Source: Bauldia sp. (GTDB taxonomy: Bacteria; Pseudomonadota; Alphaproteobacteria; Rhizobiales; Kaistiaceae). From it: 64,000 nucleotides of DNA. Below are positions 2,895-63,650 of the stretch, in pieces. Each line of letters opens with the position of its first letter. Within the stretch, counting starts at the first letter, position 1. The position numbers and the translations under genes are program-made. The notes under the pieces are model-generated. The model was not told where the DNA came from and searched no databases. It saw only the letters and a list, made by a program, of their open reading frames with translations. The stretch lies in assembly GCA_037200845.1 (NCBI GenBank), contig JBBCGQ010000001.1, forward strand, positions 806,001-870,000, in the 5' to 3' direction.

Positions 2895-3815
2895 TCACTT
2901 GGTGATCGACAGTTCCGCCGGCGCGCCTTTCAGCGAGCGCTTGGGCGAGGACGACGCGATCATGATGAGCAGCGTCAGCACGTAAGGTGCCGCGTTGAAG
3001 AAGTAGTACCCCTGCGTGATGCCGACCGACTGCAGTGCCGGCCCGATGGCGCCGGCCGCGCCGAAAAGCAGCGCCGCGCCGCAGCAGGCAAGCGGGTTCC
3101 AGCGCGCGAAGATGACCAGCGCCACCGCCATCAGGCCCTGGCCCGACGACAGGCCCTCGTTCCAGGCGCCGGGATAATAGAGCGACAGGAACGCGCCGCC
3201 GACACCCGCCGAGAAGCCGCCGATGGTCGTCGCAACGAAGCGCACGAGGTTGACCGAGTAGCCCATCGCCAGCGCCGCCGGCGCGGAGTCGCCGGTCATG
3301 CGCACGATCAGGCCCCACTTCGTGTTGCGAAACGCCCACCACAGCAGGAACGCCAGCGCCACGCCGACGAAGAACAGCGGGTTGATCTGCAGCGCCGAGC
3401 GGACGGCGGGGTTGTCCGACCAGGCGCCGAGCGTCAGCGACGGCAACTGCGGCGCGTGCGGCTGGATGAACGACTTGCCGAGGAAGAATGCCAGGCCCGT
3501 GCCGAACAGCATCATCGCGATGCCGATGGCGATGTCGTTCACCTTCGGCAGCTTGCAGATATAGCCGTGGATCGCGCCGAACGCCGATCCGGCGACGCCG
3601 GCGGCGAGCACGCCCAGCCACGGCGACCCGCTCATGTAGGAGATGGCGTAGCCGGTCATCGCCCCGAAGACGAGCGTGCCTTCCAGCCCGAGGTTGATGC
3701 GCCCGGATTTCTCCGTCAGGCATTCGCCGAGGCTGACGAACAGGAACGGCGTCGACACGCGGATGGCGCCGGCGAACATCGCCAGCAGAACGATGGACAG
3801 GCTGTTGTCGCTCAT
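2895..3815 (-). CDS. ABC transporter permease (BMP-linked, second permease)
   Basis: A 306-residue inner-membrane permease of the BPD_transp_2 (branched-chain/ribose/nucleoside) family with about eight to ten hydrophobic segments. The conserved [10 protein letters not shown] motif near residue 40 is typical of the shorter partner in nucleoside-type BMP importers. It overlaps the upstream permease gene by 4 bp (ATGA) and is followed 7 bp later by biuH, so the enzyme and the importer are translated from one message. It should form a heterodimer with the 3812-4930 product. Confidence 0.92.
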
Positions 3816-19705: not shown

Positions 19706-20070
19706 GGCGGGGACCTGACGGATACTCGGTTGCAGCTTAGCACCATGCATAAGGAATGCCGCGTGTGGAGTTACCCCAGCATACGGTGATGTCATCCCCG
19801 CGAAGGCGCGTGGGGGAGAGACACCCCTCCCCAAAACGCCTTCGGCGTTTTGACCCTCCCACAAGGGGAGGGTTCATCCTTGTTGAAACATCACGCTCCA
19901 ACAAACTCCACTTGAGCCCCCCCTTGCGGGAAGGCCAAAACCGCAAAGCGGTTTTGGGGAGGGGTGTCTCTCCTCCCAATGCGTTGAGCCTGCCGCACCG
20001 CGCCTTGCCAGCACCGCAACCGCAAGGCTAGCCTCCGCGGCTTTTTCACGCCGCTGGGGAGGGGCGCCGC
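19706..20070. other. Intergenic region, divergent glgP and GH3 promoters
   Basis: This 365-bp gap between divergent genes has no credible ORF. About 140 bp is a facing pair of family B repeats, and a partial family D motif (ATCCCCGCGAAGGCGCG) sits at its left. The remaining bases must hold both promoters, but I see no clear -35/-10 pair or operator. Confidence 0.6.
19824..19964. repeat. Family B palindromic repeats, facing pair
   Basis: Two 49-bp units in opposite orientation (19824-19872 and 19916-19964) are separated by 43 bp. Each unit has a CCCTCCC/GGGAGGG hairpin and a second hairpin. The second stem reads AAAACGCC-ttc-GGCGTTTT in one copy and AAAACCGC-aaa-GCGGTTTT in the other, so pairing is kept although bases differ. 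Confidence 0.85.
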
Positions 20071-23113: not shown

Positions 23114-23274
23114 GTCACCCTCTTTCTCTAGTCTCGCTGCGCTCGCTAAGAGAAAGAGCCCTCTCCCACCAGGGGAGAGGGAACATGCTGCGCTGTCCAT
23201 GTGTCCCCTCTCGCCTTGTGGGAGAGGGCTCCGCCTCTTGAGAGCGAAGCGAACTAGAGGCGAAGGGTGAGGGG
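23114..23274. repeat. Family C repeat
   Basis: It carries CCCTCTCCC/GGGAGAGGG-type stems and the flanking segment CTCTTGAGAGCGAAGCGAACTAG. A second copy lies at 30626-30832. It fills most of the gap before the MMPL gene. Confidence 0.75.
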
Positions 23275-30625: not shown

Positions 30626-30832
30626 ACCCTCACCCCTCGCCTCTAACTCGCTGCGCTCGCAAGAGCCGAAGACCTCTACCCGTTGCGGAGAGGGGACGAT
30701 GCTTCGCCGGCAGTTTGCATGCCGCTCCGCAGGTAGAGGAAATGTGCTCGCCGTCAGTTGTCCCCTCTCCCCAAGGGGGAGAGGGCTGCGCCTCTTGAGA
30801 GCGAAGCGAACTAGAGGCGCAGGGTGAGGGTG
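30626..30832. repeat. Family C repeat
   Basis: Second copy of the element at 23114-23274, sharing CTCTTGAGAGCGAAGCGAACTAGAGGCG and the CCCCTCTCC/GGAGAGGG stems. It separates the convergent herA-like and uxuA genes and may act as a bidirectional transcription stop. Confidence 0.75.
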
Positions 30833-43334: not shown

Positions 43335-43383
43335 CCCTCCCCTTGCGGGAGGGTCAAAACCGCGAAGCGGTTTTGGGGAGGGG
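43335..43383. repeat. Family B palindromic repeat, single unit
   Basis: A 49-bp unit: CCCTCCC-cttgc-GGGAGGG then AAAACCGC-gaa-GCGGTTTT and GGGGAGGGG. It lies between the two RNA methyltransferase genes, next to family A copy 43411. Confidence 0.85.
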
Positions 43384-43410: not shown

Positions 43411-43540
43411 ACCCCACCCACCGCGCTACGCGCGGTCCCCCCTCCCCGGAACGGGGAGGGATAAGCGGAGCTCGCCGTGGCAAACTCCAATCCCTCCCCG
43501 GAACGGGGAGGGGGGACCATGCGGAGCATGGTGGGTGGGG
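43411..43540. repeat. Family A palindromic repeat
   Basis: Facing half-units like those at 2007, with variable stems ACCGCGC-tac-GCGCGGT and ACCATGC-gga-GCATGGT. The conserved flanks CCCTCCCCG/CGGGGAGGG are the same. Confidence 0.85.
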
Positions 43541-43555
43541 AACCGCGTCGCGTGC

Positions 43556-44491
43556 TCACGCCGACCACCGCGAAAACAGCGACGTCGAAAGCTTCCGCCC
43601 GCCGCCTTCCTCCTGCAGCACCAGCTCGCCCGACTCGAGCAGCCCGCCGCGCCCGGCGAGCGACTCCGCCGCCAGCTCATCGATCGAATAGAACGAAGCC
43701 CGGATCGAGTACGCCGTGAGGATCAGGAACAGCGCCCGCTCCGACAACAGCCCGACGCACGCCGCCAGCAGCGGCCGCAGCGACGTGAAAATATCCCACA
43801 CCTCGCCGTTCGGCCCGCGCCCGAATTTCGGCGGGTCGAGAATGATGCCGTCGTAGCGCGAACCGCGCCGCGTCTCGCGCTCGACGAATTTCGTCGCGTC
43901 CTCGCAGATCCAGCGGATCTTCAAGGCCTCCAGATGCCCGAGCGCCTGGTTCTCCCGCGCCCAGCCGATCGCCTTCTTCGACGCATCGATGTGCGTAACC
44001 TCGGCGCCGGCCTTCGCCGCGATGAGCGAAGCGACGCCGGTATAGGCGAACAGGTTGAGCACCTTCACCGGCCGCGCCGCACCGGCGATCAGGTCGCGCA
44101 TCCAGTCCCAGTGCGTCGCCTGCTCCGGGAACACCCCGACATGGCGGAACGAGGTGAAACGCCCGAGAAAAGGCACGCCGTCGTATTGGATCGGCCACGT
44201 CTCGCCGAGCGGCTTCTTGTAGCGCCAGCGCCCGCCGGTATCGCCGCCTTCCTTCTCCTCGTCGCCGATGCCGACGAACTTGGCGTCCGCCGCCTCCCAC
44301 TCGGCGGCCGGCCGGCGCGGCGTCCACAGGGCCTGCGCCTCGGGCCGCACGATGCGAAACCGGCCGTATCGCTCCAGCTTCTCGCCGTTGCCCGAATCGA
44401 TCAGCGCGTAGTCGCTCCACCCGCGTGTCTCGAGGATCACGGGGGTTTTCCGCTGGAGCGTCCGGCGTGCGATGGATTCGGTGGCTGTCAC
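43556..44491 (-). CDS. Class I SAM-dependent methyltransferase (RlmI/RlmK-like)
   Basis: A 311-residue methyltransferase probably acting on 23S rRNA cytosine or guanine. The SAM-binding motif is V-L-N-L-F-A-Y-T-G-V-A-S, motif II has H-I-D-A-S-K-K-A, and the catalytic-region motif is I-I-L-D-P-P-K-F-G-R-G. This set is typical of the RlmI/YccW group, but the N-terminal PUA domain is absent, so it is a shorter relative. GTG at 44491 with AAGGAAGG close upstream is used; homologous start sites may differ by a few codons. It diverges from coxG. Confidence 0.88.
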   Translation of the reverse strand: MTATESIARRTLQRKTPVILETRGWSDYALIDSGNGEKLERYGRFRIVRPEAQALWTPRRPAAEWEAADAKFVGIGDEEKEGGDTGGRWRYKKPLGETWPIQYDGVPFLGRFTSFRHVGVFPEQATHWDWMRDLIAGAARPVKVLNLFAYTGVASLIAAKAGAEVTHIDASKKAIGWARENQALGHLEALKIRWICEDATKFVERETRRGSRYDGIILDPPKFGRGPNGEVWDIFTSLRPLLAACVGLLSERALFLILTAYSIRASFYSIDELAAESLAGRGGLLESGELVLQEEGGGRKLSTSLFSRWSA

Positions 44492-44533
44492 CCTTCCTTT
44501 TATCTCGCCGGTGCAATGGAGCGCCAGCCGTTG

Positions 44534-44639
44534 ATCCTCCCCCGCAAAGCGGGGGAGGGGGACCGCCGAAGGCGGTGGAGGGGGCGGCCCCCCCTCCGTC
44601 GGCTGCGCCGACAGCTCCCCCGTTGCACGGGGGAGGATC
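44534..44639. repeat. Family A palindromic repeat
   Basis: Units CCCCCGC-aaa-GCGGGGG, ACCGCC-gaa-GGCGGT and CCCCCGT-tgc-ACGGGGG. It fills the divergent gap between the methyltransferase and coxG, leaving about 70 bp for the coxG promoter. Confidence 0.8.
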
Positions 44640-46605: not shown

Positions 46606-46921
46606 ACACTCCTCCCCAAAACGCCTTCGGCGTTTTGACCCTCCCGCAAGGGGAGGGTTCACCCTTGTTGAAACATCGAGCCCCAAAAAACTCCGCTTGA
46701 GCCCTCCCCTTGCGGGAGGGCCGAAACCGCAAAGCGGTTTCGGGGAGGGGTGTCTCTCCTCCGTTCGACCTCGCAGTGGGACCTCTCACCCTCCATGACC
46801 CCACGATTGCACTCCGCTCATACTTCCCGTTCCGGGCACGGCGACCGCGCCTATAGCCAAAGGCGAAGCGCGCTGGGTGGGGTTGCCTCCAACGCGCCCG
46901 AGTGCCATCTCATCCCACGCA
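46606..46921. other. Intergenic region between coxM and bfd
   Basis: The 316-bp gap holds a facing family B repeat pair (46611-46750). The remaining 170 bp has no ORF I can support and no trace of coxL sequence. Confidence 0.6.
46611..46750. repeat. Family B palindromic repeats, facing pair
   Basis: Opposite-strand units separated by about 43 bp. The first stem is AAAACGCC-ttc-GGCGTTTT, the second GAAACCGC-aaa-GCGGTTTC. The A/G change at one arm is matched by T/C at the other. The spacer resembles that of the 19824 pair, including CTTGTTGAAACATC. Confidence 0.88.
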
Positions 46922-47779: not shown

Positions 47780-47828
47780 CCCTCCCCTTGCGGGAGGGCC
47801 AAAACCGCAAAGCGGTTTTGGGGAGGGG
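47780..47828. repeat. Family B repeat, left flank of the DUF559 gene
   Basis: A 49-bp unit in the forward orientation, ending GGGGAGGGG. Its last bases lie five bases before the GTG of the DUF559 gene and provide its Shine-Dalgarno. It is an inverted copy of 48191-48239. Confidence 0.9.
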
Positions 47829-47833
47829 TAGCG

Positions 47834-48220
47834 GTGCCGCACCGATCCGTGCCCGCGCCGAATAAGCGCAACGCCCGCGCCATGCGCCGCGAAATGACGC
47901 CGGCCGAAGTGCGGCTCTGGCTACGGCTGAATCGCCGCCAGCTCGACGGCCTCCGCTTCCGCCGCCAAGCGACACTCGGCAACTACATTGTCGATTTCTT
48001 CTGCCCGGAGCGGCATCTGATCGTCGAGATCGACGGCGATCACCACGGCCACGACGCCGTTGTCGTTGCCGATGCGGCACGAACGACGTGGCTGGAAACA
48101 CAGGGCCATCGCGTACTGCGCTTCTCAAATTCTGATGTGATGTCGAATCTCGACGGCGTCTACATGGCGATCTGGGAGGCAGCCACTGCACCCCTCCCCA
48201 AATCGCCTACGGCGATTTGA
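47834..48220 (+). CDS. DUF559 (Vsr-like nuclease fold) protein bracketed by repeats
   Basis: A 128-residue protein of the DUF559 family, related to very-short-patch-repair endonucleases. The motifs are M-T-P-A-E-V-R-L-W, F-R-R-Q-A-T-L-G-N-Y-I-V-D-F-F-C-P and the PD-(D/E)xK-like V-E-I-D-G-D-H-H. The start is GTG; the GGGAGGGG end of the left repeat acts as its ribosome site. The last codons (P-L-P-K-S-P-T-A-I) and the TGA are inside the right repeat. The catalytic-type residues are intact, so it could be active. Biological role is unknown for the family. Confidence 0.85.
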   Translation: MPHRSVPAPNKRNARAMRREMTPAEVRLWLRLNRRQLDGLRFRRQATLGNYIVDFFCPERHLIVEIDGDHHGHDAVVVADAARTTWLETQGHRVLRFSNSDVMSNLDGVYMAIWEAATAPLPKSPTAI

Positions 48221-48239
48221 CCCTCCCGCAAGGGGAGGG
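48191..48239. repeat. Family B repeat, right flank of the DUF559 gene
   Basis: A 49-bp unit, inverted relative to 47780-47828. Outer arms are identical; the inner stem is AAATCGCC-tac-GGCGATTT against AAAACCGC-aaa-GCGGTTTT in the left copy, so paired positions changed together. It contains the DUF559 stop codon at 48218-48220. Confidence 0.9.
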
Positions 48240-48273
48240 TTCAAGCGGAGTCCAGGTCGCTCAACGAGTCGAG

Positions 48274-48322
48274 CCCTCCCCTTGCGGGAGGGCCAAAACC
48301 GCAACGCGGTTTTGGGGAGGGG
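48274..48322. repeat. Family B palindromic repeat, single unit
   Basis: A forward-oriented 49-bp unit 34 bp after the previous one, with stem AAAACCGC-aac-GCGGTTTT. It forms a facing pair with 48191-48239, like the pairs at 19824 and 46611. Confidence 0.88.
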
Positions 48323-48407
48323 TGTGCCTCAGCAAGCGCTGCCCGTGACAATCGCCGCAGAGCTACGGCGTCCATCCGACGTCGCCGCGTTTTCCCTACC
48401 GCCCCGA

Positions 48408-62615: not shown

Positions 62616-62665
62616 CCCTCCCCTTGCGGGAGGGTCAAAACCGCGCCGGCGGTTTTGGGGAGGGG
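62616..62665. repeat. Family B palindromic repeat, single unit
   Basis: A forward unit with second stem AAAACCGC-gcc-GGCGGTTTT, one base longer than the norm. It lies between upp and the SDR gene. Confidence 0.85.
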
Positions 62666-63533: not shown

Positions 63534-63650
63534 CCCTCCCCTTGCGGGAGGGTCAAACCGCCAAAGGCGGTTTGGGGAGGGGTGTCTCTCCTCCGCATCA
63601 AACCGAGCAGCCACGCACTAACGCCGCGACCGCCAAAGGCGGGGAGGGGG
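63534..63650. repeat. Family B palindromic repeat plus fragment
   Basis: A complete 49-bp unit (63534-63582), stem AAACCGCC-aaa-GGCGGTTT, and a degenerate second piece (63629-63650, CCGCCAAAGGCGGGGAGGG). The rest of the 287-bp gap before the last gene shows nothing recognisable. Confidence 0.8.

Follow-up and report, generated by a model that had tools for sequence, protein, structure and literature searches.

A DUF559 nuclease gene and its flanking triplex-motif repeats as probable halves of a small mobile system

REP and REPIN sequences are inverted, palindromic, multicopy repeats that bracket the gene for a RAYT nuclease, occur in inverted pairs, and come in versions matched to the gene. 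RAYT transposases are thought to move or copy REPs. Among nucleases of a different kind, the known Vsr acts at T:G mismatches. Holder et al. (2015, PMC4666352) report intrastrand triplex motifs (the TM, BoxC, or PIT repeats) in more than 260 genomes of bacteria. The Escherichia coli motif forms a stable triplex in vitro, with no support for one in vivo; variation is raised and rearrangement more frequent near the E. coli motifs, and Holder et al. never found remnants of transposases or integrases around them (PMC4666352). The terms ycjD, DUF559, Vsr, and nuclease are all absent from the main text of that paper, and we saw no published link between DUF559 and repeats among the open-licence PMC papers listed. 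A DUF559 domain is contained in VsrA of Caulobacter, a proposed mismatch-repair endonuclease on which cells without the ScmA methylase depend for their DNA-damage response (PMC12907096). The role of DUF559, a common family of nucleases, is unsettled, and the triplex repeats are of unexplained origin; a link between the two gives each a testable function.

The window, by which we mean the whole 64-kb stretch of DNA analyzed, contains on its forward strand a gene (47834–48220, GTG start) for a protein of 128 amino acids. Its product matches the DUF559 profile PF04480 with an E-value of 3.4e-36 (123.9 bits against a cut-off of 20.6) and is predicted from the profile, alignment, AlphaFold2 modeling, and structure comparison to be a Vsr/EDxHD-like PD-(D/E)XK nuclease. 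The initial annotation had placed this Vsr-like gene between two inverted repeats, and that is where it lies: the left copy spans 47780–47828 (+; detected as a triplex motif at 47780–47827) and the right copy 48191–48239 (−), the G-rich tail of the left copy and the tail of the right copy both facing the gene. Read in order, the left repeat consists of a pyrimidine arm CCCTCCCC, a purine arm GGGAGGG, a second hairpin, and the G-rich tail GGGGAGGGG. The tail, which ends at 47828, doubles as a Shine-Dalgarno-like sequence and is followed by TAGCG and the GTG at 47834, as had been claimed when this repeat was said to supply the ribosome-binding signal five bases before the start. The start is supported by the recurrence of an M/V-P-H N-terminus in many homologues. 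The right copy, again as annotated, overlaps the end of the gene and encodes its last codons and the TGA (48218–48220).

The initial annotation named one inverted pair, but sequence comparison revealed within its interval a third copy beyond the gene (48274–48322, +), which belongs to a direct repeat, 62 nt long, of the left copy (95% identity) and is paired in inverted orientation with the right copy; the triplex-motif detector returns a single match spanning the right and third copies instead of the right copy separately. With its spacer, this pair (48189–48325) recurs at nine other places in the genome at 83–94% identity over nearly its full length, counted among the matches listed, further places matching less well. 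At other DUF559 loci (such as L040, L046, and L057), the C-terminal tail of the protein is translated from the downstream repeat, as in PHPNPLPSGERG, so that tails in annotations may be repeat-derived.

DUF559 genes usually carry triplex-motif repeats with the G-rich tail directed inward. The repeats at these loci combine a pyrimidine arm with two purine segments, the first complementary to that arm and the other running antiparallel to the first; the triplex-motif detector finds this make-up at 153 of 171 loci, at one after shuffling, and in 24 of 342 control windows. Among the nearest motifs, the tail points toward the gene in 112 against 14 upstream (n = 126) and in 98 against 22 downstream (n = 120). 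An alternative scoring of orientation gave 104:16 and 86:24, respectively, with 13 and 18 motifs unclear.

Judged by its sequence, the repeat of the window is built like the intrastrand-triplex class without being a strict member, because the second of its loops consists of a hairpin of about 20 nt, whereas the published ITxF search limited loops to 1–6 nt (PMC4666352). It shares with TM, BoxC, and PIT repeats the C-rich arm, the complementary G-rich arm, and the G-rich third segment, as well as numerous intergenic copies, some in inverted pairs, and a wide distribution in bacteria; unlike that class, for which no cognate gene is named in the published account, it adjoins a DUF559 gene with a matching version of the repeat. 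It is not a classical REP. The tag at a REP end is GTAG or CGTC (PMC3733652); the bases that follow the repeat end here are TAG at the left copy, which alone reads GTAG, and TGC and TGT at the other two, so that no such tag is shared. The likeness to REP/RAYT is nevertheless close in layout, a nuclease gene being bracketed by inverted multicopy repeats, matched to it in version and also found as inverted pairs, but the enzyme is PD-(D/E)XK/Vsr-like rather than HUH, and several DUF559 genes occur per genome. A profile search of this genome for Y1/RAYT transposases (PF01797) returned no matches, and we rejected a RAYT or other Y1 transposase as the driver. Since defining features of REP/RAYT are lacking, we keep the DUF559 system outside it, although the two would work alike.

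Matches to a 19-nt core of the repeat (up to three mismatches) number 11 in the window, against 0.03 expected from shuffles; at up to two mismatches there are at least 107 + 88 in the 3.15-Mb genome and none for a reversed-pattern control. Members of the family identified by both core match and triplex detector stand without an adjacent DUF559 gene at 19825–19872 (−), 43335–43382 (+), 62616–62664 (+), and 63534–63581 (+), in line with the earlier observation that the repeat occurs elsewhere without the gene, and two more form an inverted pair (46610–46657, −, and 46702–46749, +). Triplex-motif repeats of other types are present in the window at 262–406, 2036–2131, 23159–23228, 30722–30828, 43440–43512, and 44491–44635, some in inverted pairs and some resembling the repeats beside other DUF559 genes of the genome. 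Comparison with Rfam yielded sub-threshold matches only, of which the best placed was whalefall-1 (20.7 bits against a cut-off of 37), an RNA reported from environmental (whale-fall) sequence only (PMC2864571); this assignment was rejected. The site of the window gene lies between bacterioferritin and glucokinase, and in eight relatives none of the DUF559 matches listed falls between those genes; one of them (G003) holds a repeat pair of another family there, and the relatives are too divergent for exact junctions.

This genome contains eight DUF559 genes, each close to C/G-rich hairpin repeats that mostly differ in sequence from gene to gene. When this genome and its relatives were surveyed (62 matches, of which 50 loci were examined and 12, mostly short or split rows, excluded), a hairpin with a pyrimidine-rich arm lay within 400 bp of 44 of the 50; the same detector found one at 24 of 29 newly fetched loci drawn class-wide and at 69 of 80 named loci, these being the best 80 of 550 matches. 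The class-wide sample was supplemented by 20 matches hand-picked from seven genomes with several genes, and a slightly wider detector applied to the total placed a repeat within 400 bp at 161 of 179 loci, upstream at 128 and downstream at 133. Removal of eight loci with proteins at least 90% identical left a repeat at 154 of 171. Control windows contained one at a rate of 8–10% (89 of 1102 taken from far flanks, 198 of 2000 taken from this genome). In the class-wide draw, none of 30 loci of the ParE toxin family had one, compared with 25 of 29 for DUF559; nor was a repeat detected at any of 12 ParE loci in genomes with a strong DUF559 match. Low-G+C loci (below 40%) among those named had it in 12 of 14 cases, and a phylum-wide draw (26 newly fetched of 30 loci) in 25 of 26. 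We regard the association of DUF559 genes with these repeats as close to settled by these counts. The check proposed with the initial annotation, whether DUF559 genes are flanked more often than controls, thus came out in its favor; the link it drew between one nuclease and one repeat family is present but proved too narrow, being family-wide and usually involving a variant of the repeat particular to each gene.

The loci belong mostly to Proteobacteria, and the 80 named ones also include, by record title, Chloroflexota, Gastranaerophilales, Nitrospirae, and Bacteroidia; the recurrence of the pairing in bacteria of several phyla suggests that the repeat class has a partner enzyme. The 18 of 179 loci without a detected repeat include three at contig ends and two (L055 and L056) in which a DUF559-like match lies within an open frame of about 1890 amino acids with no flanking repeats; these two probably represent a different branch. 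A cyanobacterial locus (L293) was set aside as evidence, with 10 short-arm motifs near the gene against 12 far from it. Hits in 39 plasmid records were used as examples only (six were opened), and phage records gave two hits.

Protein and repeat also co-vary. Where a genome has several DUF559 genes, the hairpins flanking a given gene on either side are on average 2.3 edits apart, compared with 5.3 when permuted within genomes (36 genes, p = 2e-4). Distances between proteins correlate with distances between their repeats in Mantel tests on the eight genes of this genome (r = 0.77, p = 0.0015) and on seven genes of another (G039; r = 0.59, p = 0.005). Across genomes, where host relatedness is not fully removed, the values are r = 0.39 (p = 0.001) for 25 class-wide loci, r = 0.48 (p = 0.0005) for 61 named loci, and a weaker r = 0.25 (p = 0.002) for all 142 usable loci, the ones among the 171 that have a repeat and encode 85 or more residues free of stops. 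A random 400-kb sample of this genome contains 49 hairpins, of which 36 are within two edits of the type of one of its own DUF559 genes, as against 12 of 38 foreign hairpins that flank DUF559 genes of other genomes (p = 2e-4).

Copy number of the repeat follows the gene as well. Taking a strong DUF559 match as one with an E-value below 1e-10, at least two copies of one repeat pattern were found, among the matches listed, in 21 of 32 alphaproteobacterial genomes with a strong match and in 1 of 83 others (p = 5e-14). The phylum draw overlaps the alphaproteobacterial one in some genomes; its corresponding figures among the matches listed are 53 of 76 and 14 of 173 (p = 5e-23). Pattern-rich exceptions include G381, which has 141 copies and only a weak DUF559 match, and G211 and G310, which have 57 and 32 copies and no match; either the gene has been lost from such genomes or another driver is at work in them.

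Mesorhizobium genomes provide a view of the unit at different sites and of one site in different species. Several pairs of loci share a single match of about 530–590 bp (matches of at least 250 nt were counted) whose ends are the outer repeats and whose contexts are otherwise unmatched. At a conserved intergenic site, 6 of 11 genomes (G145, G147, G148, G152, G154, and G149, in which it runs to the contig end) contain the repeat-gene-repeat unit. In the other five, the site holds only a short repeat-like remnant (G150), a repeat pair from which the gene is absent (G155), a gene-free repeat pair in reversed arrangement (G151), a damaged repeat (G146), or a different small gene with repeat sequence (G153); sites without the gene, sought in an earlier proposal, are accordingly on record. 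The pair in G155 and the gene unit do not have the same second hairpin, so the site has a mixed history. Elsewhere there are at least nine copies of the unit with the same query ends (left 619–625, right 1145–1170) and at least 10 more diverged copies that cover it partly, with the right end at query 1039–1069 and the left end at the repeat in five and within the gene in five. The same unit is thus found at different sites with the same ends, and is missing from one site in some species. A second site holds a repeat pair in four genomes and lacks it in two. No target-site duplication was readable at the between-species Mesorhizobium junctions, the genomes being too divergent. The protein is under purifying selection: dN/dS is 0.04–0.13 in 12 of 15 pairs among six Mesorhizobium copies from several sites, the remaining three pairs not being computable and several dS values being saturated. 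In G146 (locus L287), a different palindromic element, which starts TTCAGGT and ends ACCTGAAT or ACTTGAAT, is found at two of the compared intergenic sites, in the place occupied in other Mesorhizobium genomes by a repeat pair or gene unit.

The AlphaFold2 model of the window protein (pLDDT 87.4) resembles NGO0050 (3hrl, Z 15.9), the homing endonuclease I-Bth0305I (3r3p, Z 12.6), and Vsr (1cw0, Z 10.9). Across an alignment of 41 sequences, E25, D54, E65, H71, and D80 do not vary, a set that we take to fit the EDxHD residue pattern. These residues are placed as in Vsr/EDxHD nucleases, and nuclease activity is predicted. A role in defense was considered and set aside; PADLOC gave partial matches only for this protein (DpdF, 2.6e-5; mREase_II, 1.5e-4) and no match for YcjD of E. 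coli.

In the best reading of these data, DUF559 is the cognate enzyme of the repeats in a mobile system resembling REP/RAYT but using an unrelated nuclease, and we think it fairly probable that the nuclease gene and the repeats around it together make up a small mobile system, each forming one half. This reading is weakened by genomes that retain the repeats with no strong DUF559 match and by junctions at which no target-site duplication could be read. The initial annotation had offered a repeat-linked element or a repeat-recognizing nuclease by analogy with REP/RAYT, a suggestion that the flanking counts and the Mesorhizobium site support, although the repeat itself is no classical REP. From the anatomy, the site variation, and the fold, we infer that the repeats are cut and that the enzyme drives movement. 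The enzyme would recognize its own version of the repeat, perhaps as a hairpin or triplex in single-stranded DNA, and would nick or cut it; cutting would move or copy the repeat-gene-repeat unit, and single repeats and repeat pairs could be moved or copied in trans. Such action would be comparable to that of RAYT on REPs, with a PD-(D/E)XK nuclease in place of the HUH enzyme, and, if the mechanism holds, would add a repeat-mobilizing enzyme unrelated to known transposases. A more sweeping proposal, toward which the balance tips only slightly, is that DUF559 proteins are the missing mobility enzymes of BoxC/PIT/TM repeats; these would then constitute a multi-phylum mobile class in which a lone PD-(D/E)XK nuclease of the Vsr type, acting without any DDE, HUH, or recombinase partner, recognizes the folded cognate repeat and spreads both its own unit and gene-free repeats.

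Alternatively, the enzyme might act in homing, making a double-strand break at a gene-free repeat that is repaired from a repeat-gene-repeat copy, so that the gene is inserted while the repeats spread by other means. The predicted fold is shared with a homing endonuclease, I-Bth0305I (Z 12.6), the repeats around the gene could act as homology arms, and one Mesorhizobium site is occupied by the gene unit in some genomes and by a gene-free pair or remnant in others. DUF559, unlike I-Bth0305I, is free-standing between dispersed repeats. Against homing, the contexts of the units are unrelated, with homology stopping at the repeats, and the tracking of repeat copy number with DUF559 presence is not predicted by homing alone; we regard this explanation as unlikely.

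A housekeeping role, in which DUF559 would be a Vsr-like repair or structure-processing nuclease and the adjacent repeats would serve autoregulation, draws on the Vsr fold (Z 10.9), on the Shine-Dalgarno-like tail of the repeat at the window gene, and on the part played by the DUF559-containing VsrA in the Caulobacter damage response (PMC12907096). The accessible account of VsrA describes no repeat association (PMC12907096). Against this role, downstream repeats are about as frequent as upstream ones (133 versus 128 of 179), and the presence in a genome of several divergent DUF559 genes that have separate repeats, together with variable occupancy and unit-wise homology, looks like a mobile element; this role appears quite improbable. 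That DUF559 is merely a passenger, unlinked to the repeat and collected with other small mobile genes at repeat-rich recombination hot spots, could draw on the greater rearrangement at E. coli motifs (Holder et al. 2015, PMC4666352) but is very improbable given the absence of repeats from loci of ParE, the sole control family (0 of 30, and 0 of 12 in strong-DUF559 genomes), the within-genome co-variation of protein and repeat, and the fixed polarity of the tail.

If DUF559 is the cognate enzyme of these repeats, then ycjD and BoxC of E. coli K-12 form a candidate laboratory model. The ycjD product is a DUF559 protein (E-value 1.4e-49), and a K-12-like chromosome has a BoxC-type motif about 175 bp downstream of the gene and a decayed motif at its stop codon; unlike at the window locus, the adjacent repeats are partly decayed. 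A strict detector finds nothing at ycjD and a looser one the single downstream motif. With 23 triplex motifs per E. coli genome (PMC4666352), very roughly 0.6% of such genes would have a motif that near by chance. The case weakly supports the link between DUF559 and repeats. At least 80% of a 2300-base query for the ycjD region is held by 3362 of 5426 E. coli genomes and a match to the BoxC-type stretch by 5097 of 5426, so that at least 1735 genomes keep the repeat without the region, and at other places in the genome the repeat has outlasted the gene.

In one E. coli locus (L297), ycjD, at 2986–3339, is situated between sapF and fabI, where other phylogroups have the eef efflux operon, and a BoxC-type motif adjoins it. 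The eef operon has been described (PMC12817139) in a paper whose text contains no match for boxC, triplex, palindrom, or repeat; the accessible text of PMC1189080 likewise makes no mention of repeats. In three opened strains without ycjD, efflux genes follow sapF, and no motif was found in the five stretches opened from them, with coverage from sapF to fabI in two of the strains. Among 40 listed E. coli records, the BoxC-type stretch occurs at one place in those labelled O25:H4 and in Nissle 1917, and mostly at three to six places in the others.
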